Assembly: GCF_011440375.1 (NCBI RefSeq)
Contig: NZ_JAAOIR010000002.1
Coordinates: 124,001-188,000, forward strand
Direction: 5' to 3'
DNA: 64,000 nt
Source: Halorubellus sp. JP-L1
Lineage (GTDB): Archaea; Halobacteriota; Halobacteria; Halobacteriales; Natrialbaceae
The translations under genes and the position numbers were made by a program. This document shows positions 11,199-56,125 of this stretch, one piece after another; within the stretch, counting starts at the first letter, position 1; each line of letters begins with the position of its first letter. The notes below the pieces were generated by a model. It was not told the DNA's origin and made no database searches. It saw nothing but the letters and a program-made list of their open reading frames with translations.

Positions 11199-11240
11199 AT
11201 GTCCACGCTCCGATCACTCCAGCTGGTTGTTCTCCCATGA
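11199..11240 (+). CDS. Possible 13-residue leader peptide upstream of drmD
   Basis: ATG 11199 opens a frame coding MSTLRSLQLVVLP and stopping at TGA 11238-11240, which overlaps the drmD ATG by four bases (ATGA). Together with the TATA-like box about 33 bases before it, this suggests the leader is translated first and hands ribosomes on to drmD. It was found by inspection, and expression is unproven. A chance frame in an untranslated leader is the alternative. Confidence 0.4.
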   Translation: MSTLRSLQLVVLP

Positions 11241-18118: not shown

Positions 18119-18181
18119 GTGAGTCGGACTCGCGATACGACACCACCTTCACACCATCTCCGTCGACACTAGCAGCGAATC

Positions 18182-18364
18182 CTCACTGAGCATCTTGTAC
18201 ACAAGCTCCGGAAGGAACGGTGCAGAGAAGACGCTGTCCAACCTGCTACCTTTGCGCTCGAGGGTGATGATGGCTCAGCTACCAAAACAGAGTTCGAAAA
18301 TGAAGTCAATGAGGTCTGGGAGTCGCTCAAGGAGCGCGGGGACTCTACCCACAGTAACATCTAA
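18182..18364 (+). pseudogene. Remnant of a second DrmMI-like methylase N-terminus
   Basis: A stop-bounded frame without a start codon reads LTEHLVHKLRKERCREDAV, then a TFALEG stretch and VWESLKERGD. It aligns by eye with the beginning of the preceding methylase (LTEQLLYKLRNEACSEEAV, TFAIGD, AWETLVERWDE). A TAG lies just upstream in the same frame, so it cannot be a start-proximal extension of another gene. It sits between drmMI and the giant helicase and is best read as what remains of a deleted or recombined paralogue. Confidence 0.7.
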
Positions 18365-18394
18365 AACGATTGCCGTACAGCACCAAGACATACC

Positions 18395-34137: not shown

Positions 34138-37100
34138 CTATCGGGGCTCGGTCAATCCCGCTTCATCGCTACAGGAGAGACTTCGGTGAGGGCAATACAT
34201 GCAATGGTATCCTGCAGTATCCATCTCGAATGCGCTCTCGGAAGCGAGCGAGAGACGGTCCGAGAGCTGCGCTCGCGCTTGTTCTAGGTCTGCGTCAGTG
34301 AACGTCTTCAGATCGATACGTGGGCCTTGTTCGCCGACGTAGGTGTAACCAGCAGTTCGGACGGGTTCGTCGAACAGGTTCTCACACGCAAGTAGGTAGA
34401 TGGGAAGCTGGAGGTCGTCGTCGAGGGACCGCTCGTTCTGCGTCGCCTTGTAGTCGAGGACGACCAATTCGCCGTCGGGTCGACGGCAAAGGGCGTCTAT
34501 CATGCCGACGACGGTCTCGCCCTCGAACGTGAGTTCGAAGCTGCGCTCGGCCTCCATGATCTCCCAGCTGCTCGCGTCGGTCTCGAAGAACCGCTCGATG
34601 CACGCTTCGACCGCTGGGAGGACTGCCTCCTCGCCTCGAAGCGAGGCGAGTCGCTCTGCGAGAGCCCGCCACTCGGCTTCATCCGTGTAGCCGCGATCCG
34701 CGGCGCGTTCTGCGGTGTCGTGGAACAGAATCCCGATCTGGCGCTGGCTCGGCCCGCTACCATCTCCTCCGTCCAACTCGCCTACGGCTGGGTCGTCGAA
34801 CGCCCTGACGACGTGGGAGAGGTAGTGCTGGCGCTGGCAGGTCGCGAACGTGTCTAGGGACGTGTAGCTGTGCCGTCGCTGCACGGTCGCTGCTGCAGGT
34901 TCGCCGAGCACGGCGTCGGGGAGCGAATCGGCGAGCGCGGGGTCGAGCTCGCCGTCGAGTGCTTGCTTTGCCAGATCGAGCACGCGATCCTGGCCAGCCC
35001 CTCGACTCAGGCGGGTGCCTGCTTCGATCGCGGCAACGCGCTCAGCGTCGTCGACGGGGGCAGCAATGGTCTCGGTCCCGTCGACGGCCGTCAGCGGCAG
35101 GCTCTCCTGGATCGTCTCCCAGATCGGGAACGAGACGCCGTCGATGGCCCAAGGCAGGTTCTCCGGCAGTATCTCGGCGACGGTCGCTGGCGATACGGTT
35201 TCCGCATGGAGGGAGTCCTGAGATTCATCGTCGCGACGCCCGCTGAGGATGGAGAGCTCTTCGGCTCGCGTGATGCCCACATGGAGTAGTCGGCGTGCTT
35301 CGTGCTCGTCGCGCTGGGCGAAGTCGTGGTCGAGTGGCGACCCGCCATCGAGGACGTGCTCGATCACGTCGTAGGAGCGCGCCCGCGGTGCCCATTCGCC
35401 GGCCCGGAGCTGGGGGAGGACGACGACGGGGAACTCGAGGCCCTTGCTCTTGTGGATCGTCATGATCGAGACCGCTTCGTGCTGCGTCTCCGGCTGGTCT
35501 GCCATCTCCCGGTCGGAGACGTCGTGCTGGTCGAGGAACTCGACGAACCGGCCGGAGAGTTCGGGTTCCACGGCGCCCTCCTCGAACGCACTGACGACCT
35601 CGTCGAGCGCTCGCAGGTCGTGGCGTTCCTGCTCGGAGAGGAACCACTCGATCCGCATCGTCGACTTCAGCTCCTGATACAGCCGAGACAGCGAGTGCGT
35701 GTCCCGCTTCGCCCACAGGTCGCCGAGATGGTCGCGCGCGGTTTCCACGCGGGAGGGCTCCGAGAGTTCGTCGAGCGAGATTTCGGTGATCGACTCGTGG
35801 AGTGGCGTGTTCTCGTCTGGGGCCGTACCGGGCAGTTCGTGGTCGTTCAGTCGTTCGAGGTCCGCCCGCGAAACCCGATAGCGCATCGCGAGCACCCGGT
35901 TGAGGGCGACCTCGTTCAGCGGATCGGCGAGCGCTTTGAGTGCGGCGATGACGGTCTCGACGCCGGGGGCTTCGGACGCGAGGTCGCCACCGAGCTCGTA
36001 CGGGATGCCGGCCGCCGTGAGCGCCTCGGCGATCGGACGAGCGTGGCGCTTCTTCCGGACGAGAATCGCGATATCGCTAGGGTCGTACGCAGAATCGACG
36101 AGTTCGGTGTCGCCGTTGAGCAGGCGCGTGAGCGCGTTCGTGAGCTGGGCGGCCTCGTCCTCGGGTTCTTCGTCGGCGTCGATCGTGACGACGCCCGCGT
36201 CGGCGTCCGCGGCGTCACCGACGGCAGCGAGTTCTTTCTCGCTCGCTCGGACGTCCAGTTGGGAGAGCGCATCGTTCGCGAGGTCGAGGATGGGCTGGTT
36301 CGAACGAAAGTTCTCGTCGAGCGTCTCCTCGTGCAGCTTAGGGCAAGCGGCGTCGAGTCGGGGGCCGATGTTCTCGACGTTCGCGCCGCGCCACTCGTAG
36401 ATCGCCTGGTCGTCGTCGCCGACGACGAACAGGTCAGCGTCGGCCGCGATTCGCTGGACGAGTTCGAACTGGACGGTGTCGGTGTCCTGATACTCGTCGC
36501 AGAACACGTAGTCGTAGCGGTCGCCGAGCCAGCCTGCAATCGTGTCGGCCTTGAGGAGGTCGACGGTCGCAAGGACGAGGTCGTTGAAGTCGAGGAAGTT
36601 CTCCTCGTCGAGTCGCGTCTCGTACGCTCGATAGCCAGGCACCAGGTCGGAGAGCACCTGACAGCGGTCGACGAACGCGTCGAGTTTGTCTGGGAGCGCG
36701 TAGTCGACCGGTGGCATCCCTTTCGGGGCGCCGCTGTACTGGCCGAACAGGTGTGCGGGGAGCTTGTAGCTGTACGCGAGATCCCCGTCGAGTATCTCCG
36801 CTCGGTTCGCGTCGAGGAATGCAGCCAGCGAGACGCACGTCTCGCACATCACGTCGAGATAGGTCCCGACGTGGGTCTCCATCCTGTCGTCGTTCAGGTC
36901 AGTCCGGAGCTCGCCTAGGGTCTGCTCCATTGCTTCGAGGTTGGCGAGCATCTCGTCGAGTCGGTCGTCGGTGATCTTCCGCCAGCCGACCTTCAGATGC
37001 TCGTCGGCGGCCTCACGGATCTCGTCGGCCAGCTCCCCGAATTCGAACAGCCGATCGACGGTCGGCAGGTAGGCGTCGACGTCGTCGGGCGTAATGCCGG

Positions 37101-37623
37101 TGCGCTTCATCGCGGGGACGAACTGCAGGAGCCGATCCGGTGCGCCCGTGGCGTAGTCGACGCCGTCGTACACGTCCGGGTTCGTGAATCGGTACGGCAT
37201 CTCGTCAAGCACCTCGTAGCTAAGCGCAAATCGGTCCGCGTCCGTCGCGATGTCGTACCGTGGGTCGAGGTCGGCGTGATAGGCGAACTCCTGGAGGAGT
37301 TCGTGACAGATCGCGTGGTACGTGTACGCCTCGATGTCGTAGCCGTGTTCGCCGACGGTCTCGACGAGCTTCTCTCGCATCGAGTCGGCGGCCTTGTTCG
37401 TGAACGTGAGCGCGAGGATTCGGTCCGGTGGCGTCCCGTTCTCGATGAGACGCTGGATCTTCCGGACCATCGTGAACGTCTTCCCGGTCCCGGCACCGGC
37501 ACGGACTCGCATCGGGTACGCGTCGCTCTCGATGATCTCTCGCTGTGCCTCGCGTGGCTCTGGGAACTCGTCGTCCCGTGGGTCCGGGAACTCGTCATCC
37601 TCGGCGGCTGCTTCGTCAGTCAT
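34138..37623 (-). CDS. UvrD/AddA-type helicase-nuclease
   Basis: 1161 residues. SF1 helicase motifs: RAGAGTGKTF (41-50), ALTFTNKAADSMREK, FCDEYQDTD, VVGDDDQAIYEWRGAN and HKSKGLEFPVVVLPQLR. The C-terminal nuclease has TFATCQRQHYL, GMIDALCRRPDG, VVLDYKATQ and a terminal Cys set (CMYCPHRSLSC), the RecB/AddB-type Fe-S nuclease layout. It probably processes DNA ends as a 3'-5' helicase plus nuclease. The start is ATG 37623, overlapping the stop of the upstream nuclease gene by 8 bases; the open frame beyond it lies inside that gene and is not used. Last gene of a three-gene operon. Confidence 0.85.
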   Translation of the reverse strand: MTDEAAAEDDEFPDPRDDEFPEPREAQREIIESDAYPMRVRAGAGTGKTFTMVRKIQRLIENGTPPDRILALTFTNKAADSMREKLVETVGEHGYDIEAYTYHAICHELLQEFAYHADLDPRYDIATDADRFALSYEVLDEMPYRFTNPDVYDGVDYATGAPDRLLQFVPAMKRTGITPDDVDAYLPTVDRLFEFGELADEIREAADEHLKVGWRKITDDRLDEMLANLEAMEQTLGELRTDLNDDRMETHVGTYLDVMCETCVSLAAFLDANRAEILDGDLAYSYKLPAHLFGQYSGAPKGMPPVDYALPDKLDAFVDRCQVLSDLVPGYRAYETRLDEENFLDFNDLVLATVDLLKADTIAGWLGDRYDYVFCDEYQDTDTVQFELVQRIAADADLFVVGDDDQAIYEWRGANVENIGPRLDAACPKLHEETLDENFRSNQPILDLANDALSQLDVRASEKELAAVGDAADADAGVVTIDADEEPEDEAAQLTNALTRLLNGDTELVDSAYDPSDIAILVRKKRHARPIAEALTAAGIPYELGGDLASEAPGVETVIAALKALADPLNEVALNRVLAMRYRVSRADLERLNDHELPGTAPDENTPLHESITEISLDELSEPSRVETARDHLGDLWAKRDTHSLSRLYQELKSTMRIEWFLSEQERHDLRALDEVVSAFEEGAVEPELSGRFVEFLDQHDVSDREMADQPETQHEAVSIMTIHKSKGLEFPVVVLPQLRAGEWAPRARSYDVIEHVLDGGSPLDHDFAQRDEHEARRLLHVGITRAEELSILSGRRDDESQDSLHAETVSPATVAEILPENLPWAIDGVSFPIWETIQESLPLTAVDGTETIAAPVDDAERVAAIEAGTRLSRGAGQDRVLDLAKQALDGELDPALADSLPDAVLGEPAAATVQRRHSYTSLDTFATCQRQHYLSHVVRAFDDPAVGELDGGDGSGPSQRQIGILFHDTAERAADRGYTDEAEWRALAERLASLRGEEAVLPAVEACIERFFETDASSWEIMEAERSFELTFEGETVVGMIDALCRRPDGELVVLDYKATQNERSLDDDLQLPIYLLACENLFDEPVRTAGYTYVGEQGPRIDLKTFTDADLEQARAQLSDRLSLASESAFEMDTAGYHCMYCPHRSLSCSDEAGLTEPR

Positions 37624-38533
37624 CGAGCCCCACCTCCGCGCCGAGGTAGTCTCCACACATCCCCTGATACGAGCAGTCGCCATAGGTCTGTTCCTGGATT
37701 TCATCCCACGGTTCGGGCGCGAACTCTCTATCGAGAATCCCGTCGTAGCAGTCCTCGATGATCGACCAGATGGCGTCCTCGTGGGCGTCGTAGATCCATC
37801 CGACGTTTCTGGCGTTCGCCTCCACCGTGACCGTGATCCCGTCCCGTCCGGGATTCCGATCCACACTGTGAAGGAGCCCGTAGAACGTGAACTCGACGTC
37901 CATCCCGGGCTCGTAGTGGTCGGTGCGTTTCGCGCCCTCGATGTACGTTGCAGCCTGAAATACGCTCCGCAGGATGTCGGCGTGATACGCCTCTCCGTCG
38001 TGATGCTCTTCGATGCGGTCGTGCGTTCGACCGGAGACGATCCCCGACAGCGATCCCTTGTAGTCGATCACTTGCAGGCCGTCGTCGGTCCGGACGATGT
38101 TGTCCACGCGACCGTGCAGATGGACGTCCCCACGATTGCACGTGAGCCAGCCTTCCTGCGTGACCGAGTTCCTTGCGTGTTCGAGGCCGTCCTCGGCGAA
38201 GTACGCGGCTACACCGGTGGTGGCAACCTCCCGGTCGTACGCGTACTGAGCGTCGGACGCGTACTCGGACCGGTCGGTGTGACTGGTCCACTGTCGGTCG
38301 ATTGCCTCGGCCGCATACGCTCGAATCTCTTCGTCCGTCGGCGATCCCGAGTGATCGGCGACCCACGTACACGTGTCCTCGATCGCGCCATGGTAGGCAA
38401 GTCCCCGGTCGAGGTAGCGACGCGACTCCTCGGGCGCCTCGACCGACCACTCCGAGTCGTACTCGTACTGTCGCGGACACGCCGCGTAGGTCGCGAGCCG
38501 CGAGGGCGAGACGCGAGTCACGGTCTCATTCAC
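37616..38533 (-). CDS. Cas4/RecB-like PD-(D/E)xK nuclease
   Basis: About 305 residues. SRLATYAACPRQYEY at the N-terminus, GRVDNIVRTDDGLQVIDYKG in the middle (catalytic Asp and D-Y-K) and DCSYQGMC at the end fit a Cas4/PF12705 nuclease with a Cys cluster. Only three of the usual four cluster Cys are obvious. The start is GTG 38533, overlapping the AddB-like stop (GTGAATGA). It lies between an AddB-like scaffold and an AddA-like helicase, so it probably supplies a separate nuclease subunit. No CRISPR array or cas1/cas2 is near, which argues against an adaptation role. Confidence 0.8.
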   Translation of the reverse strand: MNETVTRVSPSRLATYAACPRQYEYDSEWSVEAPEESRRYLDRGLAYHGAIEDTCTWVADHSGSPTDEEIRAYAAEAIDRQWTSHTDRSEYASDAQYAYDREVATTGVAAYFAEDGLEHARNSVTQEGWLTCNRGDVHLHGRVDNIVRTDDGLQVIDYKGSLSGIVSGRTHDRIEEHHDGEAYHADILRSVFQAATYIEGAKRTDHYEPGMDVEFTFYGLLHSVDRNPGRDGITVTVEANARNVGWIYDAHEDAIWSIIEDCYDGILDREFAPEPWDEIQEQTYGDCSYQGMCGDYLGAEVGLDD

Positions 38534-40652
38534 GATGCACCACCCCCTCCGCGAAGTCGACACGGGTTCGAATCGCTTCGCGGACCTCGTCCGGGAGGTC
38601 ACCGTCGAGGAGCGACTGGATCGTCGCGAAGTCCTCGTGGACGTCGTCGACCTCCACGGGATCTCCGACGATGCCGGCCCGCCGGATGGCGTCCAGCGCG
38701 TCGTCAGTCCTCGTGAGCGCGAACTCGACGGCGCTTCCGTGACTGTGTATCCCACCGTGGTTGACCCGCTCGAACGCTCCGTACGCGTCCTCCGCAGCGG
38801 CCAGGAACCGCGATGGCTGTAGATTGGTGCCCGTTCCACCGCTCTCCTCGCGAAACGTCCCGAAGTAGAGTCGGTCTTTGGCGGCTCGTGCACCGACGGC
38901 GAGGAATCGGCGGCTCAGCGCGGCGTAGTACGCCTTGAGCGGGCGCGTGCTCGCCTCCGATTCCGTCGTGAACGTCTCCCGAACGTCCGAGTCGGTCGGC
39001 GTCGTGTAGGCCGGATAGCCGTCGAGGCGTTCGAGGTGTGGCGTCGGGAAGAGCGACGTGAATCGCGGGTCGGCGGGATAGTCGCGATCGACGGCGTTGA
39101 CCACGAACACCGCTTCGCGCGTCACGTTCTTCACGACCCGGACGGTGTCGACGAGCACGCCGTCTGTCGGCGTCTCGAGCTCTGCGGCGACCCTGTCGGC
39201 TGCCGCACGGTCCATCTCGCGTTCCAGTCCCCGGCGGAGCGTCTCCCACGACGCATCGACCAGGTCGGAATCGTCGACGAAGCTCGCGAGTGAGAGCACC
39301 GCTCGAACGTGCTCGAACGTCGTTCTGGCGTCCAGCGGTTCCAGCTCCCTCCCGATGCGTTCCTTGAGGTCCGTCTCTCGCATCCAGGCCCAGAGCGCCG
39401 ATTCGAGCCCACTCGACGCCGATCGGTCGCGAACCTCCACGCAGCGCTGCTCGAGTTCCGTATCGTCTTCGATGCGCGCAGCGAGCGTGGCGAGCGCTCG
39501 CTCGCTGGACCACCCCGCTTCGGCATCGTCGTCGTTACAGCACCAGCAGACGAGCGCGTAGAGCTCTCGCGCGGCCGGGTCGTGTTCGAGCCCCGCGACC
39601 GTCGCTGACGTGACCGGGATCCCCGCGTTCTGGAGGAGACGGAGCGTCTCCGGGATCGGCGCTTTCGAATCCTGAAGCACGACCACGATCTCGTCGTACG
39701 AGACGCCGTCTTCCCGTCGGCGAAGCTCGATCTCGTCAGCGATCCGCCGGACTTGCGCTTCGAACGTCGGACTTTCCAATACGGCTACGTGGCCGTCGGC
39801 CGTCGCCCCCGACCGATCGCCCGTAGCGAGGAACGACGCGACCGCCTCCGGCCGCGTTCCGTCCTCGGGAGCTGCATAGTCGACGACCGAAAGTTCAGGT
39901 ACTACGTCTTCGATCCGTCCCGACTCGTTCCAGAGGCGCTGGATGGCGCTATTCCGTTCGCCCACGCAGACCAGCGGCGTGTCGAGCGTGAGCCACGCGA
40001 GATACGCCCGGTCGATCGGCGTGAACTCCTCGAACTCGAGGACGAACACCGCGTCGAACTCTCGCTGTATCAGCCGTCGAACTTCGTCGTCCTGTAACTG
40101 CTCGAGGGCCGTCGAGAGGACGTTCCCCGGATCCAGTAGGTCGTGGTCGCCGAGCCACTCGTGGAACGCCCGATTGAACGTGGCGAGTTCGGTCAGCACT
40201 TCGTCGGTCGTCTCGATCGAACTTCTCTGCCAGGTGGCCTCGGCGACGAATCGTCCGAGATCGCTGACAAACGACCCTTGCTCACTCGCCTGATGAAGGT
40301 AGGGGGTCTCCCAGTCGTATTCCTGTTCGAAGGTCTCGAGCAAGAGGTACTGTTCGGCCTGAGTTAGCACTCGCGAGGACACTGGGCTCTCTTCGAGGAC
40401 TCGCCGGCTGTGCGCTGCCAGCCCCATGACCTCCGGCGTCGTGACGCCGTCCGTCGCGTCCGCGAGCGCCACCTCCAAGTCGTCGATACCCGTCGGAAAC
40501 CGCTTCACGACGAGGACGTTCCCTGCACCATGTGTGTCGGCGATATCGGCGAAGAACGGAGCTGCGGCATCCGCCAGCGGGTCTCCCAAGAACGGGAGAA
40601 GATGTAATGATCCCTCCAGAGAAGGAGCGGTATCCACGGGCGTATCCTGCAT
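38526..40652 (-). CDS. AddB/RecC-like inactive helicase subunit
   Basis: About 708 residues from ATG 40652. The UvrD-like fold is suggested by VFVLEFEEFTPIDRAYL (Walker B position), AVFVNAVDRDYP and KAYYAALSRRF, but the Walker A site at the N-terminus is missing (SLHLLPFLGDPL) and there is no nuclease domain. This matches the RecC/AddB role of a non-catalytic partner that helps split and scan DNA ends. It is the first gene of the AddB-Cas4-AddA operon. A longer frame begins at TTG 40694, but ATG 40652 is the better start. Confidence 0.7.
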   Translation of the reverse strand: MQDTPVDTAPSLEGSLHLLPFLGDPLADAAAPFFADIADTHGAGNVLVVKRFPTGIDDLEVALADATDGVTTPEVMGLAAHSRRVLEESPVSSRVLTQAEQYLLLETFEQEYDWETPYLHQASEQGSFVSDLGRFVAEATWQRSSIETTDEVLTELATFNRAFHEWLGDHDLLDPGNVLSTALEQLQDDEVRRLIQREFDAVFVLEFEEFTPIDRAYLAWLTLDTPLVCVGERNSAIQRLWNESGRIEDVVPELSVVDYAAPEDGTRPEAVASFLATGDRSGATADGHVAVLESPTFEAQVRRIADEIELRRREDGVSYDEIVVVLQDSKAPIPETLRLLQNAGIPVTSATVAGLEHDPAARELYALVCWCCNDDDAEAGWSSERALATLAARIEDDTELEQRCVEVRDRSASSGLESALWAWMRETDLKERIGRELEPLDARTTFEHVRAVLSLASFVDDSDLVDASWETLRRGLEREMDRAAADRVAAELETPTDGVLVDTVRVVKNVTREAVFVVNAVDRDYPADPRFTSLFPTPHLERLDGYPAYTTPTDSDVRETFTTESEASTRPLKAYYAALSRRFLAVGARAAKDRLYFGTFREESGGTGTNLQPSRFLAAAEDAYGAFERVNHGGIHSHGSAVEFALTRTDDALDAIRRAGIVGDPVEVDDVHEDFATIQSLLDGDLPDEVREAIRTRVDFAEGVVHRE

Positions 40653-40999
40653 GCCACCTGATTCTGCTGTTGGCGTAATGATTGTGGGGGCCAACGAACC
40701 GTGCCTGTAATTCGAAAGTTAGTCTTTTCCTTGGCCGAGGACGATAGCCACCTAGAGGAGACAAGCTATTGAACAACGATTGCGGTAGGATTACTGCATC
40801 TGCAGCGGTGTTGTTTTCGTCTTCGGAGGTGCGACAAGCGGTCGAGAGTCATCCTGATACCCCCTTATTCGAGTTGGTACCAGGCAAACGAAGGTGTGAG
40901 CGATCTAGTGCCCCATCTATGATGCTTCTTCTGTAAGGGTTGCAGACACCCTCATCTGACTCAAGAGCGCATGAATTGGCAGTTTGAATCTCCGGGGAG
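40653..40999. other. Spacer between the AddAB-like operon and the Rad50-like gene
   Basis: About 347 bases with a possible promoter stretch (complement of 40708-40722) for the AddB-like gene. Nothing else recognisable. The gap and the change in base composition separate the two operons. Confidence 0.5.
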
Positions 41000-43900
41000 T
41001 TATTCGGAGTTCGACATTGGGTAGGTTCGTTCTGAAATGATTGGGATGTTTTCCCGGGTGAAGTCTGTGGACTTGCCAATCTTTCGTTCGAGGAGATCTG
41101 CTATCTCTTCGTTTGCAGTGGCGAAAATGATCTGTCTGGAGCCATCTCTTGCTAATTCGATCAATAGATTGAAGAATGATAGAGTATTGATATCGTCGAG
41201 GTGGGCGAATGGCTCGTCAAGCAGCATCAGCGGCGGTGCGCGCTCGTGTGCAATATTGTTTGTAACGAAGATCGCCAACGCTAGGGCCGCTCGTTGACCG
41301 GAACTCATCTCCGAGATTCCAGCTACGCCAGAACCACCCTCACGTTCGGATCGACGCTCAACAACGACATCGTCACCATCATATTTGACCTCGCCAAACT
41401 CATACGGCCGTTGGAAGGCTTTAAACAACGTTGAGATCACGGTCATGTGTTCTTCAACGAGCCGTTTCAGCTGAGCTTCACTATCGCCACCCTCAAATGC
41501 AGTATCGAGCCTGTCGAGACTATCCTTACAATGCTCTATCTCTTCTTGCAGATCCGCAATATCCGCTTCAATAGTTTCGATCTCATCTTCAAAGTGTTGC
41601 GGGAGATCTAGCGCTTCGGGGGTAGTTTCAATCTTGCTGACCGTGCGGTCTATCACTTTAGTATCTGCGCGTAAAGCCAGTGGCTGTTCCAAGGCATCGT
41701 CTGGCCAGAACTCTTCGAGAACATGCAAGGCTGCATCGATATCGGACGATCGGTTTTCATGATACCGTTCGAGCGCGATGAGATCATCACTATCGGCAGT
41801 CGGCCCCGCGGGAACCGTGAACCACACCTCTGAAATGCGCGACTCAAGATAATCATCCCCGCGTTCTAAAACCTCACCGAGTAGCACATTCTCCGTTTCA
41901 ACATCGATATAGCCGTCCAAGACTTGAGCGACCGTCTCAACCGTTTCTTCACTCGTCTCAAAAGAACCCTCAGACGAAAGCGACCCACTATCGATAGCCT
42001 CCCATAGCTCCGTAAATGCACTCAGGTTGCAGATATCATCATATCGGACCGAGATCGCATAGTCGATCTCCTCCCATTCTGATAGCGTGAGAATAGACTT
42101 CGCTTCTTCTAACCTCGAAATACGATTCATGAACCCATCTGGAACACGGTCAGAGGCATCTCCGTGTAGATGGTCTGGTTTCTCTCGCTCCAGTATCTCT
42201 TCGCGGGATTGTTCGGTATAGCAGGCTGGACAATAGTGAACATCGTCTGTAATTTCAAGATAGCTTTCTGTCTGCCCGCGAATTTCGGCCTGGAGTTCCT
42301 GACGCCGCTCTTCCAGCTCATCAAGTTTCTCAATCTTTTCCTGTTGTTCTTTCAAATCGGACAAGACAGTGTTTACAGCCTTATTCGTCGCCTCTCGCCA
42401 CCCCTTCACCGTACTTGCTCCCGTCGGTTCGACGTCGGTATCGATCTCCTCCTGAAGCACATCCTTTAGCGTCGCTAACTCCTTCGGACTTACCCCATAC
42501 GAGTCAAGCAGTAATCCAACAAACCCAGCCTCAGAGGACAGGCTCTGAAGAACAGAATCTGAACACTCCTTTAGTACTTGTCGTAGGTTCGAAGCCTCTG
42601 ATTGATACTGCTTGCCCTCCTGAATCAGAGGTAAATATTGATTCGTCTCGTCACGGGCCGCTCGCAGTTCCTGCCAGAGCTGGTCTGCTGTATCGATCTC
42701 CTCATCTGCTACTGACACCGCCTCACAGCCACTCTGCAAGTCAGCGAACCGCGATTGCCAGCGAGTCCACACCTCGAGCCGATTCTGCTCAGAGGGCAGC
42801 TCGCTATCCAGAGGTGACGAATGATGGCCGACATCGAGCGCCCTCGCTGCCGCCGGTGACAGCTTCTCACCGGCATGCTCTAGCCGAGAGAAAAGCTGGA
42901 CCGCCTGAGCTTGCTTCTCACGAACGGCTCTCAACTCTCTACCAAGGTCTTCAATCGATCGAACATTGTTTCGGATGTGCTTCTCTAACCTTGGCCCAAG
43001 TTTCCGTTTATCTTTGAGCACATCTTCCAGCTCTTCACCATACAAAAGCCGTCGGAGTGTCTGATCAATGTCTAAATCAGGCTTATTCTCTATAAACCGA
43101 GTAGCAGCGCCAGCTTCGTGATAATTGATATGGTAGAACTCGCTATATTTCGGTTCCCGTCCGTGAGGTCTAAACCCAAACCAGTCCGCGACACGGTCGT
43201 TCACCGACCGTGAGTCAGTCGGCAATGGCTCAGCATCACCTTCGAGCGTCACGCCGAGATCCGCATAGTCATCAGCACGACGATCATCGTCATGCCGGAT
43301 CTGCCCGATTAGCCCCAGAGCCGTCGCATCTAATAGGCTCGTTTTCCCAGTCCCATTTCGACCATACAAGAGCGTAAACTGCTCTGCATCCAGTTTGTCA
43401 AGATGGGCGGATCTCCGGAACTCCCCTAGTTGGGTCGAATCGACAAACGCATCCCTCGGATCTCCACGAATCTCCGAAGAGCGGCTACTAGCTTCGGACC
43501 GCTCTCCCACCCCATTCCGTAATATCTTAAACTTCTCATCACGGTTTAGATTATCAAATAAGAAACCAAGTCCTTGGTCGAGAATATTCTCGATGAATGC
43601 TCCTCGGTCGAACTCATTCGTGATGTTCGCCAGCTTTGCTTTACTCGTTCGCAAAGGAGCTATGAAATCCTGTAACTCTCCAATGCCGATACACCGCCGA
43701 ATTGCGAACCGTGTACTCTCCTCAAATTCCGTCACTAAATCCGGATCCGGCTTTGCGCCATCTTCGTACGCCCACAGGAGACGAATATTCCACTGGTTCG
43801 GCGTATCAGGATTATAAAAACGATTCTCCAGCTCGTCAATATCAGCATCTAACAACTCCCTCGCATTGTCCTCAGGCTTGAGATACCGTAAGAGAAGCAA

Positions 43901-44014
43901 CTCATCAGCGAACCCCTTTCTTTCTTGCTGGACCGCATACAACCTCCCTGGCCGCTCTACTGCAGTAAGCGCGTTCACATCGAGATGCGATGGCAGGTAC
44001 TCTGAGATCGTCAT
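41000..44014 (-). CDS. Rad50/SMC-like ATPase with zinc hook
   Basis: 1004 residues. Unlike ordinary Rad50, it begins with about 210 residues of mostly helical, unassigned sequence before Walker A GRNGTGKT (218-225). Long coiled coils follow, interrupted by a single zinc-hook CPAC (595-598). The C-terminal head has the ABC signature ISEMSSGQRAALAL (900-913), Walker B PPLMLLDEP (928-936) and an H-loop position reading FATANE instead of the usual His. It probably forms a DNA-bridging or sensing dimer. ATG 44014 overlaps the nitrilase-like stop by four bases, so the two products are co-translated. The DNA is AT-richer than the neighbouring AddAB-like operon. Confidence 0.85.
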   Translation of the reverse strand: MTISEYLPSHLDVNALTAVERPGRLYAVQQERKGFADELLLLRYLKPEDNARELLDADIDELENRFYNPDTPNQWNIRLLWAYEDGAKPDPDLVTEFEESTRFAIRRCIGIGELQDFIAPLRTSKAKLANITNEFDRGAFIENILDQGLGFLFDNLNRDEKFKILRNGVGERSEASSRSSEIRGDPRDAFVDSTQLGEFRRSAHLDKLDAEQFTLLYGRNGTGKTSLLDATALGLIGQIRHDDDRRADDYADLGVTLEGDAEPLPTDSRSVNDRVADWFGFRPHGREPKYSEFYHINYHEAGAATRFIENKPDLDIDQTLRRLLYGEELEDVLKDKRKLGPRLEKHIRNNVRSIEDLGRELRAVREKQAQAVQLFSRLEHAGEKLSPAAARALDVGHHSSPLDSELPSEQNRLEVWTRWQSRFADLQSGCEAVSVADEEIDTADQLWQELRAARDETNQYLPLIQEGKQYQSEASNLRQVLKECSDSVLQSLSSEAGFVGLLLDSYGVSPKELATLKDVLQEEIDTDVEPTGASTVKGWREATNKAVNTVLSDLKEQQEKIEKLDELEERRQELQAEIRGQTESYLEITDDVHYCPACYTEQSREEILEREKPDHLHGDASDRVPDGFMNRISRLEEAKSILTLSEWEEIDYAISVRYDDICNLSAFTELWEAIDSGSLSSEGSFETSEETVETVAQVLDGYIDVETENVLLGEVLERGDDYLESRISEVWFTVPAGPTADSDDLIALERYHENRSSDIDAALHVLEEFWPDDALEQPLALRADTKVIDRTVSKIETTPEALDLPQHFEDEIETIEADIADLQEEIEHCKDSLDRLDTAFEGGDSEAQLKRLVEEHMTVISTLFKAFQRPYEFGEVKYDGDDVVVERRSEREGGSGVAGISEMSSGQRAALALAIFVTNNIAHERAPPLMLLDEPFAHLDDINTLSFFNLLIELARDGSRQIIFATANEEIADLLERKIGKSTDFTRENIPIISERTYPMSNSE

Positions 44015-45726
44015 TCATTAACCCTCACTAAGCCACCAGTATTGCTAACATCCTCACTTCCATGCGAAACTCGCCCCGCGTCCTCATAATTCTTCAACGT
44101 CTTAAGCACAAGCCCGTCACTCGCACTCAGTGTCGCGACAAGAGGTTTGAAACGCTGAGGCTCCCGTTGCAACACCCAGTTATGCAACTCCTCAGCGGCC
44201 TCGTCTTCTTCCTCTGGACTCACCCGATTGGTGGTCATCAAGCAGGCCTGCACAGGTTTGTCAGTATACCTTGCATTCATCGGGACATCACTGAGTGAAA
44301 ACTCGTCATCCATACAGAGACCATGATTAGCGACCCAATCAGTTACCTCTACTAAATGCTGCACATCAGGCACAGGTGATGATCTACGACGCGAATGATC
44401 ACTGAAGACATGTCCTAACCGTTCCGTACCATCCCGGTCTGAAAGCGTCTCCACGGCCGCCCACGTTAAGTCACGGGCAGGATCAAAATCAGATTCCCCA
44501 TCCGGAAGTTCATCGAAGTTGATGTTCCGAAGTGCGATTGCTGTGCTCAGTTCCCTGGCCAGGGCCGAATCCGGTAGTTTCGCTCGCCAGTCATCACACG
44601 CCTGATGAGTACATTCAGGCACTCCAGGAGTGCTCGCATTATACGAGTTAGCGGATTCATCCCAGGACCAAGTGTCCATGATCCTTGGTTGCGAGAAGGA
44701 AGCGTCACCACCGGCTGTATCGCCCGGATTTTGTCGCTCAAACTGTAATCGGCTTACAGCATCATTAGCCATTACCCACACGTGATCACAGTGATAGCCC
44801 GGCTTCGTGCCTACAAGGCCTCCGTTATCGTAGGTGGTATCGTAGCGATATAACGGGGATCGGGTCTTCGCCTTCGAATATACCCCGGAGTACCCAAACC
44901 AGTGGGTGTCACCGTCAATCGTGATCTGTCCCCAATTCGCAGCCACGTACGTGACTTTAAAATCAGAGCCATTGAACGCATCATTCCGAAAATCGATCCA
45001 GGTTTGATGGAAGGGATCTGGATTACACTGCACATGAACCACAAATGAATCGTATTGCCTAGCAGCGTGGGCCACCTCCTCGCGCAAATCACCGTTCATA
45101 ATATCAGAACACGTCCAGACGATCACATTAGAACCATTTCGAGGGTCAATGCTCCATATTGAACCCCCACAAGCCAGATTCGCCTGTTCATTTGGCAGCA
45201 CGCCCTCACTCATCGATTGCGTCTTGTACTGCACCAAGACCGCAGGTTTCGAGCTCTCCACCCTTGCAGCCGGCTTAATTGGAATAATGGTCGGAGTGAG
45301 AAACTCATCACCGGAGCACTCTACATCCTCTGTTTCAATAACTTCAAACTCCTCTTCCTCTTCCAGTTTCTCAAACACACGTTGTCTAGTGTGATCCTGT
45401 ATTGGGGCACAACCGAGCACGAATAACGGGCTGTCATTTGCAAAGAGGTAGTCGCGATGGTTCAGCACCCACTCGATATTATAGGCCCACTCTGGCGCCA
45501 CCGCTAGTTGGCACTCTGTATCATTCGCCTGTCGGAGGAACGATTCGGCCTTCTGTTCCATTGCCGGCTCCGGTGCTGGGAGCTCTGATACATTGTTAAC
45601 TTCACCACCTGGTTGGTGCACCAATACGTTCTTACTTCCAATTTCAGTGTTCAAAATAGGGTACTGCTCAAAGCTCAACCCATTAAGTCTCTGCCCTGCA
45701 GAAACAACCCGCGACGTGCCACTCAT
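44011..45726 (-). CDS. Nitrilase-fold protein paired with the Rad50-like ATPase
   Basis: About 571 residues from ATG 45726. The first 300 residues have the carbon-nitrogen hydrolase catalytic set: LAVAPEWA (Glu79), VLVQYKTQS (Lys168) and VIVWTCSDIMN (Cys206), each in the strand context expected for the family. The second half (about 330-570) is unassigned and may form a recognition or partner-binding domain. It overlaps the Rad50-like gene by four bases. A TATA box lies 31 bases before ATG 45726, which favours it over a GTG four codons upstream. The enzyme could hydrolyse a small metabolite (such as a nicotinamide or amide substrate) on activation. That role is inference. Confidence 0.7.
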   Translation of the reverse strand: MSGTSRVVSAGQRLNGLSFEQYPILNTEIGSKNVLVHQPGGEVNNVSELPAPEPAMEQKAESFLRQANDTECQLAVAPEWAYNIEWVLNHRDYLFANDSPLFVLGCAPIQDHTRQRVFEKLEEEEEFEVIETEDVECSGDEFLTPTIIPIKPAARVESSKPAVLVQYKTQSMSEGVLPNEQANLACGGSIWSIDPRNGSNVIVWTCSDIMNGDLREEVAHAARQYDSFVVHVQCNPDPFHQTWIDFRNDAFNGSDFKVTYVAANWGQITIDGDTHWFGYSGVYSKAKTRSPLYRYDTTYDNGGLVGTKPGYHCDHVWVMANDAVSRLQFERQNPGDTAGGDASFSQPRIMDTWSWDESANSYNASTPGVPECTHQACDDWRAKLPDSALARELSTAIALRNINFDELPDGESDFDPARDLTWAAVETLSDRDGTERLGHVFSDHSRRRSSPVPDVQHLVEVTDWVANHGLCMDDEFSLSDVPMNARYTDKPVQACLMTTNRVSPEEEDEAAEELHNWVLQREPQRFKPLVATLSASDGLVLKTLKNYEDAGRVSHGSEDVSNTGGLVRVNE

Positions 45727-45752
45727 TAGTATCCACACCGCATAAGTGCCAG

Positions 45753-45761
45753 TTATTTTAA
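45753..45761 (-). promoter_or_regulatory. TATA box of the nitrilase/Rad50-like operon
   Basis: On the minus strand this reads TTAAAATAA, centred 31 bases before the ATG at 45726, giving a leaderless or nearly leaderless bicistronic mRNA. Confidence 0.6.
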
Positions 45762-46332
45762 TCTACCTACTGCAATACAACACCTAAAACAAGACTCGAC
45801 ACCCACCTGGGAAACCAGATTGCTCCTGACTAAAACTGCCGACCACTCGGCTTATCAAATGATCCCACCAACCCCATCGGACCTCACAGCTAACTCCACC
45901 ACTGCAGTAAGCTCCTAGATCGATCTATCTTACTCGGATCATCCCGTCGACTACTCGGCTAACCAACCAACTTGACTTCGTGAGATGATAATAGTAGGAT
46001 CAAATCCCTCCTCTCACATTCGAACCCCCAAACAGACAACTACCCTCACACTGTCTGTACCGTTATCGTCCCAATGGAGGCTACAGATAGCGTCGGTTCT
46101 GTCACTGGCTCGCCCCGACAGAATCATGAACTAAACTAGCCAGTGGGCAACGCCACCAAACAATTTTATCCAGGAACACTGATACGATAGCCTCTCAAAA
46201 ATAACTCTATCTCACGATTCCAGCTTCCACCAACCCATCATCACCAGTATACGGCTCAAAAACATCCACCATCAGACCTCCCTCTCACACCGAAAACCCG
46301 CAAGACCCATCCCGTGATACACTCCTAAATCC
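45762..46332. other. Intergenic stretch with no recognised gene
   Basis: About 570 bases, AT-richer than average, with several TATA-like words (for example near 46165). No convincing frame, RNA or repeat was found. Confidence 0.5.
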
Positions 46333-47268
46333 ATGCAGCAGACTGAATCCATACGTGCACGTGGCTGTCTCCGAGGCCTGGCCTGCGGTGACGCCCTCGG
46401 CCGCCCGGTCGAATTCAAATCCGCCAGCCAGATCGAACACAAGCACGAGACCGTCACCGAGATGCTCGCGAACGGCTCGCACGGGCAGCCAGCCGGAACC
46501 ATCACCGACGACACCGAACTTGCCACTTGCATCGCCGAGAGCCTCGTCGCGAACGACGGCTTCGACCCCGACGACGTCGCCTCGCGGTTCGTCGACTGGC
46601 TCGACACTGACCCGTTCGACGTGGGATTGATGACGAGAGACGCGATCTCGAAGCTCCGCGAAGGCATGGATCCAGACGAGGCCGGCCGAGCTGTCTGGGA
46701 ATCCCGCCCCGAAGGGTCCAACGCCGGCAACGGGAGCGTCATGCGTTGTGCACCATACGCCATCGCGTTCCGGCACGATGAGATCCAGCTAGAGCGCGTG
46801 AGCAGACGGTCCTCTGCGATTACGCACGCCGACCCGCGCTGTCAGTGGGGATGCGTCGTCCTCAACCGTACAATCGCTGGTCTCATCCGCGGCGACGACC
46901 ACGCACTCCGAGCGTCTCAAGACGCACCCGACGAACTCCTGGGCGCCCTACAGCGCGTCAACGACGTCCTCTACGACACCCAAGACCCCGACCTCCTCGA
47001 GAACGACCTCGCAACCAGCGGCTACGTCGTCGACACCCTTCAAACGGCATTCTACTACGGACTTGGTGCAGAGACCGCGGAAGATGCGATCATCCATGCC
47101 GTCAATCGCGGTGGCGATACTGATACTGTCGGCGCGATCGCGGGCGCCGTCGCCGGCGCACGCGGCGACACCGGGCCACTTCCCGATCGGTGGCTATCGG
47201 TGATCGACGAAGGACCACGCATCGACTCGCTCGCAGACTCGTTACTCGACCTCGATCCGGCGCCCTGA
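46333..47268 (+). CDS. ADP-ribosylglycohydrolase (DraG family)
   Basis: 311 residues, full-length for the family. The metal-binding and catalytic motifs are present in order: GDALGRPVEF (19-28), TDDTEL (58-63), NGSVMR (133-138), ITHADPR (163-169) and NRGGDTDTVGAIAGAVAG (258-275). It removes ADP-ribose from proteins, nucleic acids or small molecules and acts in the cytoplasm. It lies 98 bases upstream of a CARF-like/PIN-like gene pair on the same strand, so it may either belong to that module or detoxify ADP-ribosylation from an outside toxin. Confidence 0.9.
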   Translation: MQQTESIRARGCLRGLACGDALGRPVEFKSASQIEHKHETVTEMLANGSHGQPAGTITDDTELATCIAESLVANDGFDPDDVASRFVDWLDTDPFDVGLMTRDAISKLREGMDPDEAGRAVWESRPEGSNAGNGSVMRCAPYAIAFRHDEIQLERVSRRSSAITHADPRCQWGCVVLNRTIAGLIRGDDHALRASQDAPDELLGALQRVNDVLYDTQDPDLLENDLATSGYVVDTLQTAFYYGLGAETAEDAIIHAVNRGGDTDTVGAIAGAVAGARGDTGPLPDRWLSVIDEGPRIDSLADSLLDLDPAP

Positions 47269-47365
47269 ATCGCACTCGAGGCGACTCGTCCATTCGTGGC
47301 GCTTTCGACGCCTCGAGCAACGAACTGCCCACAGGCTTTTGCGGTCATTTTGCGTATCAGGGGTC

Positions 47366-47830
47366 ATGCATCGCTGGGTCACGTGCGAGAGCACCACGTT
47401 CGAGTCGATGGTGAACCCACTCGCGGGAGCGTGCTCGGAGGGGTTCGTCCCCGATGAGTACATCATCCTCTCCAACGAGGCCATCCGCGACAACGTCGAA
47501 CGAGCGACTGCGCTCGCCGAACGCATCGTCGCCGAATACGACGAATCGCTGGAGACCACGGTCGAGTCACTCGACGACGAACGCGACCTCGAAGCCATCG
47601 TCTCGTTCTTCAAAGACAACCTCGACGCCCCGCCCAGCGGAGAGACGGCGGTCGACGTCACCCCCGGGCGGAAATTCATGTCTGCAATCGCGTTCCAGGC
47701 CGGCATGCAGTACGGTGCAGATCACGTCTACTACCTCTTCCTCGACTCCGCGGATTACTACGGGCACATCTACGACGACATCCCCGACCCGGCGGTCGAC
47801 CTCATCGACTTCACGGCGGTGATGCCGTGA
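47366..47830 (+). CDS. CARF-like Rossmann-fold protein
   Basis: 154 residues from ATG 47366 (a TTG at 47339 also opens the frame). The pattern is that of CARF sensor domains: an N-terminal strand followed by STTFESMVNPL, then EYIILSNEAI, and the signature-like VDVTPGRKFMSAIAFQAG (97-114) before a YYLFLDS strand, comparable with the TGGTKPMS region of Csm6/Card1-type proteins. It would bind a cyclic or linear nucleotide signal. The downstream nuclease-like gene overlaps it by four bases (GTGA). No effector domain is fused, and no CRISPR locus is in the window. Confidence 0.6.
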   Translation: MHRWVTCESTTFESMVNPLAGACSEGFVPDEYIILSNEAIRDNVERATALAERIVAEYDESLETTVESLDDERDLEAIVSFFKDNLDAPPSGETAVDVTPGRKFMSAIAFQAGMQYGADHVYYLFLDSADYYGHIYDDIPDPAVDLIDFTAVMP

Positions 47831-48870
47831 AGCTCACTCGCGACCACCTCACCGTCCTCCTCAATACCTACTACGAGGACGATGGCGTTCGCTCGATCAC
47901 AGTTCGACACCCGAGCGACGAGCTCGGTGAACTCCTCCGCATCGACCTGGGCGGGCACGATGACACGGCGGTACGGTTCACGACGGGCCCGCTCTCCTAC
48001 GAGGGAGCGCTCGAAGACGTCGCACGTGTTCACGGCGAGGACGCCGCGGCCGACCTCCCAGACGAGGGGCACTACGCTCGTGCGCTCGCCGGTGCGGGCT
48101 TGCTCGACGTCGAGAACGCCAGTGACGTGGCCGAGATCGTGGATCGACACGGCTACCGCGACCTCGCTGCCGGCCACCATCCGCTGTTCGTGGGACTCGA
48201 CACGAACCTGCTGCCGTGGTATCCCGAGTCGCTCCTAGCGATCGAGCCATGGCGTACGGACGACGCTGAGCGCCCGCCAGTAAACGGCTTCGCGCTCGCG
48301 TCCGGCGTGAAGTCCGAACTCGACTTCTACTACCGGAACCCGGAGACCTCGCGCCTGCCGCAGGCGTTCGGGCCCGAGTACGAGCGCGTCGAGGGCCAAC
48401 CGGTCAGCGACAACCGCCAGGGTATCCTCGGTCTCTACGAGTACCGCCAGCTGATGGCCGAACGAAGGGTCGAGGAAGTCCAGAGCGAGACCGGTGACGA
48501 AGCCATCGTCGCCGCGTACGACGAGTTCCGAGATCGGAATCGCCAGGAACTACTCCTGTTCAGCAACGACCACGGCTTCGTCGATCGAGCGCGCGACCGC
48601 GGACTACAATCGTCCCACGTCCGATTCCCCATCGACACCCCCCGTAAGACAGTCGCATCCTGGAACGAGATCGAGCGAGCGCTCTACCTCCTCACCGTCA
48701 TCTTCGGCGTACTCGAACTCCCGAAGGTCACGCTGTACGGGGTCTGGCCCGAGAAAGACGGTCAAGACTGGCAACGAGAACGGTTGTCCGTGGACTGTCG
48801 GAGCCCGAACTACAGCGAGACGCTCTCCCGTCGCAAAGCGATCGTCACCGCGTACGAGCAGTCCGCTTGA
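47827..48870 (+). CDS. PIN-like nuclease partner of the CARF-like protein
   Basis: 347 residues, GTG start overlapping the previous stop. The N-terminal 110 residues are unassigned. The following region looks like a PIN nuclease: FVGLDTNLLPWYP (Asp125), SGVKSELDF (Glu164) and LLLFSNDHGFVDRARDRG (Asp248, Asp253), the spaced acidic residues of a metal-dependent RNase. Its tight coupling to a CARF-like gene suggests a signal-activated RNase. The family call is from motif reading only. Confidence 0.6.
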   Translation: MKLTRDHLTVLLNTYYEDDGVRSITVRHPSDELGELLRIDLGGHDDTAVRFTTGPLSYEGALEDVARVHGEDAAADLPDEGHYARALAGAGLLDVENASDVAEIVDRHGYRDLAAGHHPLFVGLDTNLLPWYPESLLAIEPWRTDDAERPPVNGFALASGVKSELDFYYRNPETSRLPQAFGPEYERVEGQPVSDNRQGILGLYEYRQLMAERRVEEVQSETGDEAIVAAYDEFRDRNRQELLLFSNDHGFVDRARDRGLQSSHVRFPIDTPRKTVASWNEIERALYLLTVIFGVLELPKVTLYGVWPEKDGQDWQRERLSVDCRSPNYSETLSRRKAIVTAYEQSA

Positions 48871-52352: not shown

Positions 52353-53339
52353 TCATTCAGATTCGCGAACGTACGGTTGGAGGAAGGCAGCGGGTGCCCC
52401 CAGGCTCTCTCTAGTTGCGCCTCGCGAGACGAAAATGAGGACGAGTATCGTCGCGACGTATGGAGCCGTAGCTAGTATGGATGGATTGGTGATGACGCCT
52501 AGTACCGGGTCGAGGTTTATCCCGAGAATGTCGATGCCGGAGAACTGGAACGCCTGGGATCGGATTTGTAGAACGCTCAGGACCCCAAATAGGTATGCTC
52601 CAAGCAGGATGCGCACAGACCGCCATTGGGCGAAGATGACGAGCGCAACGATGATCCAACCGCGTCCGGCGACCATATCACCGACCCAGAGCTTGAGGAC
52701 AGCTAACGAGAGGGTTGCTCCTGCTGCCCCCGCAAGTGCGCCACCGAGGAGTATCGCCAGGTAACGGGTTCGAACTACGGAGACGCCCATGGTATCGGCA
52801 GTCGCTGGGTCTTCGCCTACGGAGATGATTTCATGTCCGATGTTGGTGTGGTGGAGAAAATACCATACGAGAGGAACAAATGCGATCGCTATATATTCTG
52901 GAACGGTATTTCTGAAGAGCACAGGTCCTATGACTGGAACCTGTACGAGCACCGGACCGATTACGGGGACGATGACGTCATTGAAGCCAGTAATGGACTT
53001 GGCAGTCCATGCCGCCCCGAAGTAGTCGGTTAGACCGATGCCCAAGAGCGAGAGCATGATCCCACTGACTACTTGACTTGCTTTGAACGAGACGGTGAGT
53101 ACCGCGTGGATCAAGGAGAATGCGAGGCCGGCGCCTGCGCCAGCAAGGAGCCCGAGATACGGGTTGCCGGTGACGTTCGTCACGGCGAAGCCGGTGAGTG
53201 CACCGACTAACATCATCCCTTCCATCCCGAGGTTGAGAATTCCAGCTCGCTCGTTGATGAGTTCGCCGAGCGCTCCCAGTAATAGTGGGGTCGCGGCAGC
53301 AATCGTCGCATCGAGAACCGTCGTGGCAAACGGGGCCAT
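52353..53339 (-). CDS. ABC transporter permease, nucleoside/BMP type (second)
   Basis: 328 residues, hydrophobic with about 8-9 predicted membrane segments. INERAGILNLGMEGMMLVGA near the N-terminus and GEDPATADTMGVSV in the cytoplasmic loop are typical of YufQ/NupQ-type permeases. It starts directly after the first permease's stop and is the last gene of the operon. It forms the membrane channel with its partner for import of the ligand bound by the BMP lipoprotein. Confidence 0.9.
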   Translation of the reverse strand: MAPFATTVLDATIAAATPLLLGALGELINERAGILNLGMEGMMLVGALTGFAVTNVTGNPYLGLLAGAGAGLAFSLIHAVLTVSFKASQVVSGIMLSLLGIGLTDYFGAAWTAKSITGFNDVIVPVIGPVLVQVPVIGPVLFRNTVPEYIAIAFVPLVWYFLHHTNIGHEIISVGEDPATADTMGVSVVRTRYLAILLGGALAGAAGATLSLAVLKLWVGDMVAGRGWIIVALVIFAQWRSVRILLGAYLFGVLSVLQIRSQAFQFSGIDILGINLDPVLGVITNPSILATAPYVATILVLIFVSRGATRESLGAPAAFLQPYVRESE

Positions 53340-54416
53340 TCAGACCGCCTCCCCGCCAACGGCGGAACGTTCGAGTGACACTTCGAACTGCTGGAAGAAC
53401 GTTGCGGTCAGGAGGAAGAGAATGATAAGCGCTTGAATAATCTCGACGAGGGCAGCAGAAACGTTCAATTGCACGCTGATGAACCCTGCTCCGACGAACA
53501 GGACGCTAAAGAAGAGGCTCGCAAGTAGTACGTGGAACGCGCTATTGCGACCCAGGAGCGCGATAGCGATCGCAGTGAAGCCATATCCTGGTGAGAAGTT
53601 CGCCAGCAGCCTGTGTTGAGAGCCAGCAATCTCAGCCATGCCTCCGATCCCGGCCAAAGCGCCGCCGAGTACCATGACCGTGACGAAGACGCGGTAGTCG
53701 CTGATGCCCGCATGGAACGCTGCGCGAGGGTTAGATTCCTGTACCGTCGCCTCGTACCCGAACCGAGTCTGCTTCAACAGGACGTAGACGAATACGACAG
53801 CCAGGACGGCAAGGACGATACCGAGGTGCACGCCAGTCCCGGGAATGCTGGGCAATTGTGCGGCTTCTCCGATCATTTCACTCGCTGGATAGCCCGCTCG
53901 TCCACCTTGCATCGGGCCATGTACCATGTAATCGTTGATCGAGACAGCGATGAACGTCATCATGAGCGTGACGATGATCTCGTTTACATCCCATTTGGCC
54001 CGTAGCCACCCTGGGATGAATCCCCAAATTCCTCCTCCAAATGCACCACCGAGTACGACGAGGACGAGCATGATACCGGTCGGGGCGTTGATATTGAGAG
54101 CTACCCAGGTAGCTACGATGCCCCCGACGTAGATCTGTCCTTCCGCGCCGATGTTCCAGAGCCCGGCCCGCATCGGTAAATACACGGCCAACGAGGCGAG
54201 CGTGAGTGGGACCGCTTTGACCAATGTCTGAGTAAGTCCCGCGGGAGTCGAAAGTGGTTGCAGGAGAACGATCTCGTACGCGTTTATTGGGTTGAAGCCG
54301 CTGAATACCAGAGGGACAGCTCCAACGACTAGTGCAGCGAAGATCGTGGCTACTGGCGTTAACAACTGGAGCCATCGAGGCGTTTCCTTGCGGGGCGTGA
54401 CGTCTACATTTATCAT
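53340..54416 (-). CDS. ABC transporter permease, nucleoside/BMP type (first)
   Basis: 358 residues with about 9-10 membrane segments. LWNIGAEGQIYVGGI and the EAA-like loop VQESNPRAAFHAGIS identify a YufP/NupP-type permease. It overlaps the ATPase gene by four bases (ATGA). It pairs with the second permease to form a heterodimeric channel. Confidence 0.9.
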   Translation of the reverse strand: MINVDVTPRKETPRWLQLLTPVATIFAALVVGAVPLVFSGFNPINAYEIVLLQPLSTPAGLTQTLVKAVPLTLASLAVYLPMRAGLWNIGAEGQIYVGGIVATWVALNINAPTGIMLVLVVLGGAFGGGIWGFIPGWLRAKWDVNEIIVTLMMTFIAVSINDYMVHGPMQGGRAGYPASEMIGEAAQLPSIPGTGVHLGIVLAVLAVVFVYVLLKQTRFGYEATVQESNPRAAFHAGISDYRVFVTVMVLGGALAGIGGMAEIAGSQHRLLANFSPGYGFTAIAIALLGRNSAFHVLLASLFFSVLFVGAGFISVQLNVSAALVEIIQALIILFLLTATFFQQFEVSLERSAVGGEAV

Positions 54417-56062: not shown

Positions 56063-56125
56063 GGTTCGTGTCGTCGGCTGTGAGTGGTATTCATGAGAAA
56101 GGGGGCCGCGTTGTGGCCCGCGACG

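Follow-up and report, generated by a model that had tools for sequence, protein, structure and literature searches.

A nitrilase-fold protein encoded with an LmuB-like zinc-hook ATPase in Halorubellus sp. JP-L1, a probable compact Lamassu system with a fused middle component

Lamassu systems are composed of an LmuA effector, an LmuC middle component and LmuB, and a C-N hydrolase is among the effectors listed for them (PMC10586767). A nitrilase domain was also described as the anti-phage effector of DRT1, where it acts with abortive infection and its substrate is unknown (PMC13275509). Here we analysed a 64,000-nucleotide stretch of Halorubellus sp. JP-L1 (contig NZ_JAAOIR010000002.1, positions 124,001 to 188,000 of the forward strand; hereafter the window), in which a gene for a nitrilase-superfamily protein overlaps one for a Rad50/SMC-like zinc-hook ATPase. 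The pair is probably a compact nitrilase-effector Lamassu (ABC-3C) system, having the middle component (MComp) fused to LmuB and an ATPase that would sense DNA and gate the nitrilase. The first-pass annotation of the window had considered that the pair matches no named system; this view was not supported, the ATPase being LmuB-like, its N-terminal domain a likely fused MComp, and a C-N hydrolase being already listed among the Lamassu effectors (PMC10586767). A literature search did not retrieve any paper joining Lamassu and nitrilase, and the link to the listed C-N hydrolase effector is by name only. The locus is organised as follows (coordinates of the window):

44011..45726, minus strand: open reading frame (ORF) of the nitrilase-superfamily protein, putative effector in the LmuA position, 571 aa, with a predicted nitrilase fold and kept beside the ATPase
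41000..44014, minus strand: putative MComp1-LmuB fusion, Rad50/SMC-like zinc-hook ATPase, 1004 aa, assigned by its PADLOC LmuB and Pfam SMC_N matches
45754..45762, minus strand: TATA-like element ATTAAAATA, by direct reading; putative promoter element, placed about 28-36 bases before the nitrilase ATG

Both ORFs exist as first described and share a 4 bp overlap, with an in-frame GTG at 45738 giving 4 more codons ahead of the nitrilase ATG. As to the TATA box that the two genes had been said to share, a TATA-like element is indeed present, and AGATTAAAAT was found too in the closest relative (L011), at about equal distance upstream of the nitrilase; one promoter shared by both genes is, on this sequence, plausible but unproven.

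Conservation of the pair was surveyed in 392 genomes of the order, the window's genome included. A full-length nitrilase was found in nine of them, and the identical nine have a full-length ATPase adjoining it, so that the pairing is obligate in this set; a tenth match to the nitrilase was fragmentary and weak (E 2.6e-4). The other ATPase matches were also weak and limited to the common ABC core. The two proteins have co-evolved, as seen in the mirror-tree correlation of their distances (r = 0.99, Mantel p 2e-4). The pair is kept beyond chance, since it is without frame breaks, 11 of 12 haloarchaeal loci retain the 4-bp overlap, and both proteins are under purifying selection, with a ratio of non-synonymous to synonymous substitution rates (dN/dS) of ~0.15-0.3. 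Family search and profile scan added Natronorubrum bangense, Halonotius terrestris and others, and the plasmid collection added strain DL31; a single-sequence nitrilase scan of genome contigs found none, and the nitrilase profile scan of genome contigs retrieved seven loci.

Remote relatives were found on plasmid pPNAP01 of Polaromonas naphthalenivorans, where the nitrilase and a 1041-aa ATPase with an N-terminal domain adjoin Hachiman genes, and in two genomes, G663 and G735, whose "Methanosarcina-type" genus label is inferred. When 72,556 plasmids were searched by tblastn, the window ATPase and the Polaromonas ATPase each gave the same four records at E<=1e-10 and no others, and all of these are nitrilase-paired. 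No relatives were found in the viral contig scans, nor in the phage collection searched with the Polaromonas nitrilase. In G663 (L065), the nitrilase gene has a 4-bp overlap with that of a 1687-aa protein, which joins a NACHT/STAND NTPase (PF05729 8e-7), TPR repeats and an LmuB-like ABC domain; the third gene, next in order, codes for a TPR protein with an N-terminus similar to the N-terminal domain of the window ATPase. The same three genes are present in G735 (L074), with the third one ending in an additional nitrilase-like domain (CN_hydrolase 0.045).

Fusions of an NLR to an SMC-like protein (NACHT/STAND-TPR with a LmuB/Rad50-like ABC ATPase) were observed at L065:10239-15302 and L074:5604-10703. 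At L074:12552-16925 a single protein joins a middle-component-like domain, a TPR array and the second nitrilase-like domain, which carries GIMIGNEY at the expected nitrilase Cys motif and may therefore be inactive.

The Walker A, CPAC hook, ABC signature and Walker B first proposed for the ATPase were all recovered, Walker A and the hook at the residues given:

43340..43363, minus strand: Walker A GRNGTGKT, residues 218-225, near-invariant
42221..42232, minus strand: zinc hook CPAC, residues 595-598, invariant in haloarchaeal homologues and CPVC in Polaromonas
41291..41308, minus strand: ABC signature MSSGQR, residues 903-908 (SSGQR 904-908), from the homologue alignment
41213..41230, minus strand: Walker B LMLLDE, residues 929-934 (LMLLDEP; D933-E934), catalytic Glu934 intact, from the homologue alignment

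At the position of Glu934, Polaromonas and Methanosarcina have Asp. The best PADLOC family for the window ATPase was LmuB (1.1e-30, over 207-981), which was also the top family in all five relatives tested, drawn from Polaromonas (2.5e-30), the Methanosarcina-type genome G663 (9.5e-25) and haloarchaea. Pfam returned SMC_N (4e-11), and the closest solved sequences were Rad50 and SMC, in accordance with the SMC/Rad50-type partner initially described; the claim that no Mre11 partner exists likewise stood, no Metallophos (PF00149) match being found anywhere in the window.

Ahead of the ABC head lies a further domain:

43460..44014, minus strand: ATPase N-terminal domain, residues 1-185, candidate fused LmuC / ABC-3C Middle Component 1 (MComp1), from the Polaromonas alignment and hhalign

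This "extra" domain had been noted at first as absent from ordinary Rad50. It is present and is best read, from sequence comparison, as LmuC / MComp1 fused to LmuB. The N-terminus of the Polaromonas ATPase matches PF20289 (MComp1) with 1.1e-4, its 22.3 bits falling short of the curated cut-off (27.3), and the alignment of the haloarchaeal ATPase profile with Polaromonas runs unbroken across the N-terminal domain and the ABC head (54-351). Alignment by hhalign of the haloarchaeal N-terminal domain with three others, including stand-alone middle components, gave E 1.6e-4 over 139 columns. In the methanogen loci a middle-component-like domain has its own gene, beside the nitrilase and the LmuB-like ATPase, the stand-alone TPR protein matching PF20289 weakly (0.18); a middle component would be expected to occur in just this way, with its own gene in methanogens and fused in Polaromonas and the haloarchaea. 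Moreover, position 223 of the PADLOC LmuB model PDLC03861 (1213 positions) aligns with residue 202 of a relative's ATPase, and therefore N-terminally extended LmuB proteins are already within the PADLOC library. A PF20289 search of 117 haloarchaea and of control genomes gave no match in either, and so has no bearing.

The following features were assigned to the nitrilase protein:

44683..45651, minus strand: predicted nitrilase catalytic domain, about residues 26-348, from VIA-align, hhalign register and invariance
45490-45492, minus strand: catalytic Glu, E79, invariant and in hhalign register
45223-45225, minus strand: catalytic Lys, K168, invariant and in hhalign register
45109-45111, minus strand: catalytic Cys, C206, invariant and in hhalign register
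45187-45189, minus strand: E180, candidate fourth catalytic Glu, from its invariance
44014..44682, minus strand: C-terminal region, about residues 349-571, presumed to dock on the ATPase complex, by the layout of LmuA (PMC10586767)

Neither Pfam nor NCBIfam returned anything significant for this protein, PF00795 (CN_hydrolase) being without score, and for this reason the nitrilase claim needed structure. A model was built with AlphaFold2 from the nine-sequence alignment, residues 1-270 having a predicted local distance difference test (pLDDT) mostly >70, and its C-terminal third being unreliable (pLDDT mostly <50). The model was aligned by VIA-align with 4f4h (Z 16.5, root-mean-square deviation 3.7, 233 aligned residues) and with mouse Nit2 2w1v (Z 16.3), and by Foldseek with nitrilase-superfamily structures (E 8.8e-9). 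Alignment by hhalign with the single genuine PF00795 protein of the genome placed E79, K168 and C206 on the PE, RKH and CYD columns (E 0.0023). These residues are invariant in the nine haloarchaeal homologues and, together with E180, unchanged in remote relatives at 17-19% identity. The protein as modelled has a nitrilase fold with its Glu-Lys-Cys triad intact, in agreement with the residues first proposed. Its C-terminal third, originally reported as unassigned, has no family match in Pfam or PADLOC. As in a Lamassu effector, the N-terminal domain is enzymatic, the gene overlaps that of the ATPase by 4 bp and the two are obligately paired.

Several points weigh against assigning the pair to Lamassu. 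The LmuB homology is at family level, with mad3 and AriA, other SMC-like defence ATPases, scoring lower but significantly. Vibrio LmuB has a Glu-to-Gln Walker B (PMC10586767), whereas Glu934 is intact here, and the ATPase cycle may therefore differ from that of Vibrio LmuB; judging from its sequence, the haloarchaeal ATPase may cycle and reset. The N-terminal domain of the window ATPase has no direct match in Pfam, its MComp identity being reached via intermediates, and its structural model has no significant PDB match. Finally, no match to a known LmuA/ABC-3C C-terminal domain was obtained for the C-terminus of the nitrilase.

By VIA, the N-terminal domain model matched chiefly PD-(D/E)XK-like folds at Z 8.1 and below, among them EndoMS (Z 8.1), EcoT38I (7.2) and FokI (6.9), which we take as no more than a lead; a known LmuC structure was absent among these matches, LmuC-likeness being not thereby excluded. 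No obvious catalytic ExK was seen in the model along with this PD-(D/E)XK-like resemblance, and the middle component may have the fold of a degenerate nuclease.

An alternative is that the pair belongs to an SMC-like defence system of its own, which runs parallel to Lamassu without deriving from it, acquired a nitrilase and has an unrelated sensor as its N-terminal domain. It would fit a window domain lacking a direct family match and only weakly PD-(D/E)XK-like (Z of 8.1 for EndoMS, then ~7 and below), a nitrilase C-terminal region unlike known LmuA C-termini, and a methanogen ATPase fused to a NACHT-STAND/TPR sensor. We consider it rather unlikely, as every relative tested has LmuB for its top family, the Polaromonas N-terminus matches the ABC-3C middle component, and both the window domain and the ABC domain align with Polaromonas without interruption.

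The surroundings of the pair bear on the remaining alternatives. Downstream of it lies the following cluster, a possible accessory outside the claimed core:

34138..40694, minus strand: AddAB-like cluster of a UvrD helicase, a PDDEXK_1 nuclease and a 722-aa companion

Of the 10 carrier genomes, 7 have PDDEXK_1 (AddAB-like UvrD with PD-(D/E)XK) <=12 kb from the pair, against an expectation of 0.25. This recurrence is an association and not proof of function, because the loci include related ones and defence islands tend to cluster. The AddAB-like genes beside the pair, in the window (34138-40694) and at L013, L014, L017, L058, L063, L064 and L069, belong to at least three subfamilies and vary in orientation. 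A type IIG restriction-modification gene (L011), HmaC/DUF499 (L013) and Dsr1 (L064) were found as neighbours at other loci, and DrmD/DrmMI-like, Druantia DruE-like, CARF-PIN-like and mad3-like genes in the window; the defence-island setting initially suggested is supported both here and beside the pairs of relatives. Integrases and transposases occur near the plasmid-borne pairs.

Within the window, a mixed DISARM/Druantia-like cluster (11237-23695) comprises a DrmD/HmaA-like helicase, a DrmMI/type IIG-like methylase and a DruE-like SNF2 protein (1.7e-129), and the MADS mad3-like ABC ATPase (54413-56062, 3.8e-35) lies in an apparent operon of uncharacterised proteins (52353-60411). Two overlapping ORFs at 47339-48870 resemble a split CARF-PIN effector, the first being weakly CARF/Card1-like and the second fitting CARF_PIN only from profile position 142-172 on. 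A divergent ADP-ribosylglycohydrolase (46333-47268; PF03747 1e-74) adjoins the pair, as does a partial homologue with 55% identity in strain DL31 (L070:8785-9369); a second copy in the Halorubellus genome lies <=10 kb from another PDDEXK cluster.

Since the pair is carried on plasmids in three haloarchaea and on one conjugative bacterial plasmid, it might act as a toxin-antitoxin-like plasmid maintenance pair, with the ATPase restraining a nitrilase that loss of the element would free. This appears very improbable, as the pair also resides on multi-megabase contigs (G000:C2, G106:C1, G119:C2) and a large sensor-type ATPase with conserved Walker A, signature and hook exceeds the needs of an antitoxin. 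Least probable of all is a housekeeping or metabolic module, with a Rad50-like repair ATPase and a nitrogen-metabolism amidase found in a defence-rich island by chance: despite the Rad50/SMC homology, the generic nitrilase fold and the DNA-repair-like AddAB-like enzymes nearby, it was rejected on its sporadic distribution (9/392 genomes) and the lack of an Mre11 partner in the window, while carriage on plasmids, with integrases and transposases close by, defence systems adjoining in a bacterium and several archaea, and the strong divergence implied by the absent Pfam CN_hydrolase score despite the fold stand against it as well.

For a nitrilase-effector Lamassu, we infer how DNA sensing, autoinhibition, effector release, substrate and abortive outcome might be arranged, with recognition of aberrant DNA, gating of the effector and the outcome taken from Lamassu biology. 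The ATPase with its fused MComp would form a zinc-hook dimer watching for aberrant DNA, such as ends, hairpins or viral and plasmid replication intermediates, and at rest would keep the nitrilase inactive, probably via the nitrilase C-terminal region. When target DNA and ATP bind, the geometry of the heads would change, so that the nitrilase is released or free to form an active oligomer. Once active, it would hydrolyse a C-N bond; the target would be an essential metabolite that bears an amide or amine and resembles glutamine, NAD or a nucleotide, and its loss would stop growth or kill the cell before the invader multiplies. The nitrilase fold is common to amidases and glutaminases, and an amide-bearing metabolite is for this reason the best guess for the substrate. 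For an effector of this sort the nitrilase of DRT1 sets a precedent (PMC13275509). A metabolite-depleting abortive response was conjecture in the first-pass annotation and stays so here.

What is new is the lineage that pairs a nitrilase with LmuB, the methanogen form of this lineage, re-wired by fusion of NACHT-STAND/TPR to LmuB, and the recurrent AddAB-like neighbours; nitrilase-effector Lamassu of this kind, with MComp fused, has a range that takes in haloarchaea, methanogens and a betaproteobacterium. More speculatively, and with less than even chances in our opinion, the lineage could have interchangeable sensors, an MComp-LmuB fusion in haloarchaea and Polaromonas and, in the Methanosarcina type, a LmuB-NACHT-STAND/TPR protein with MComp on another TPR array; haloarchaeal AddAB-like helicase-nucleases would then process or present DNA ends, and SMC-gated metabolite killing would be partly under NLR control. 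Nitrilases are rare in phage defence, that of DRT1 being the one studied (PMC13275509). The pair would represent a second, independently wired nitrilase defence system, in a two-protein complex where substrate and gating become approachable. The natural MComp-LmuB fusion would fix a one-to-one relation of middle component and LmuB, and in the methanogen form a Rad50-like ATPase would be coupled to a sensor of the NLR-like type.

Compared with known systems, the pair shares with Rad50-Mre11 a zinc-hook coiled-coil ABC ATPase, and differs in having no Mre11-type nuclease in the window, an MComp-like N-terminal domain and a nitrilase partner. Fold and catalytic triad are those of NAD synthetase glutaminase domains and Nit2 omega-amidases, but the protein is beyond the reach of Pfam CN_hydrolase, has ~220 more C-terminal residues and is partnered by an SMC-like protein. 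DRT1, a class 3 UG/Abi reverse transcriptase system likened here by description only, also has a nitrilase-superfamily effector in an anti-phage system (PMC13275509), its sensor being a filament-forming reverse transcriptase instead of an SMC-like ATPase. With Lamassu/ABC-3C/DdmABC, the pair has in common an LmuB-type zinc-hook ATPase, an effector gene upstream in the operon, a likely middle component, and an effector with an N-terminal catalytic domain and an unassigned C-terminus. It departs from them in a C-terminus without a match among the known LmuA C-terminal families, in a nitrilase that takes the place of the Cap4-type nuclease, and in the fusion of MComp to the ATPase, which reaches ~1000 aa versus ~650 of a typical LmuB.

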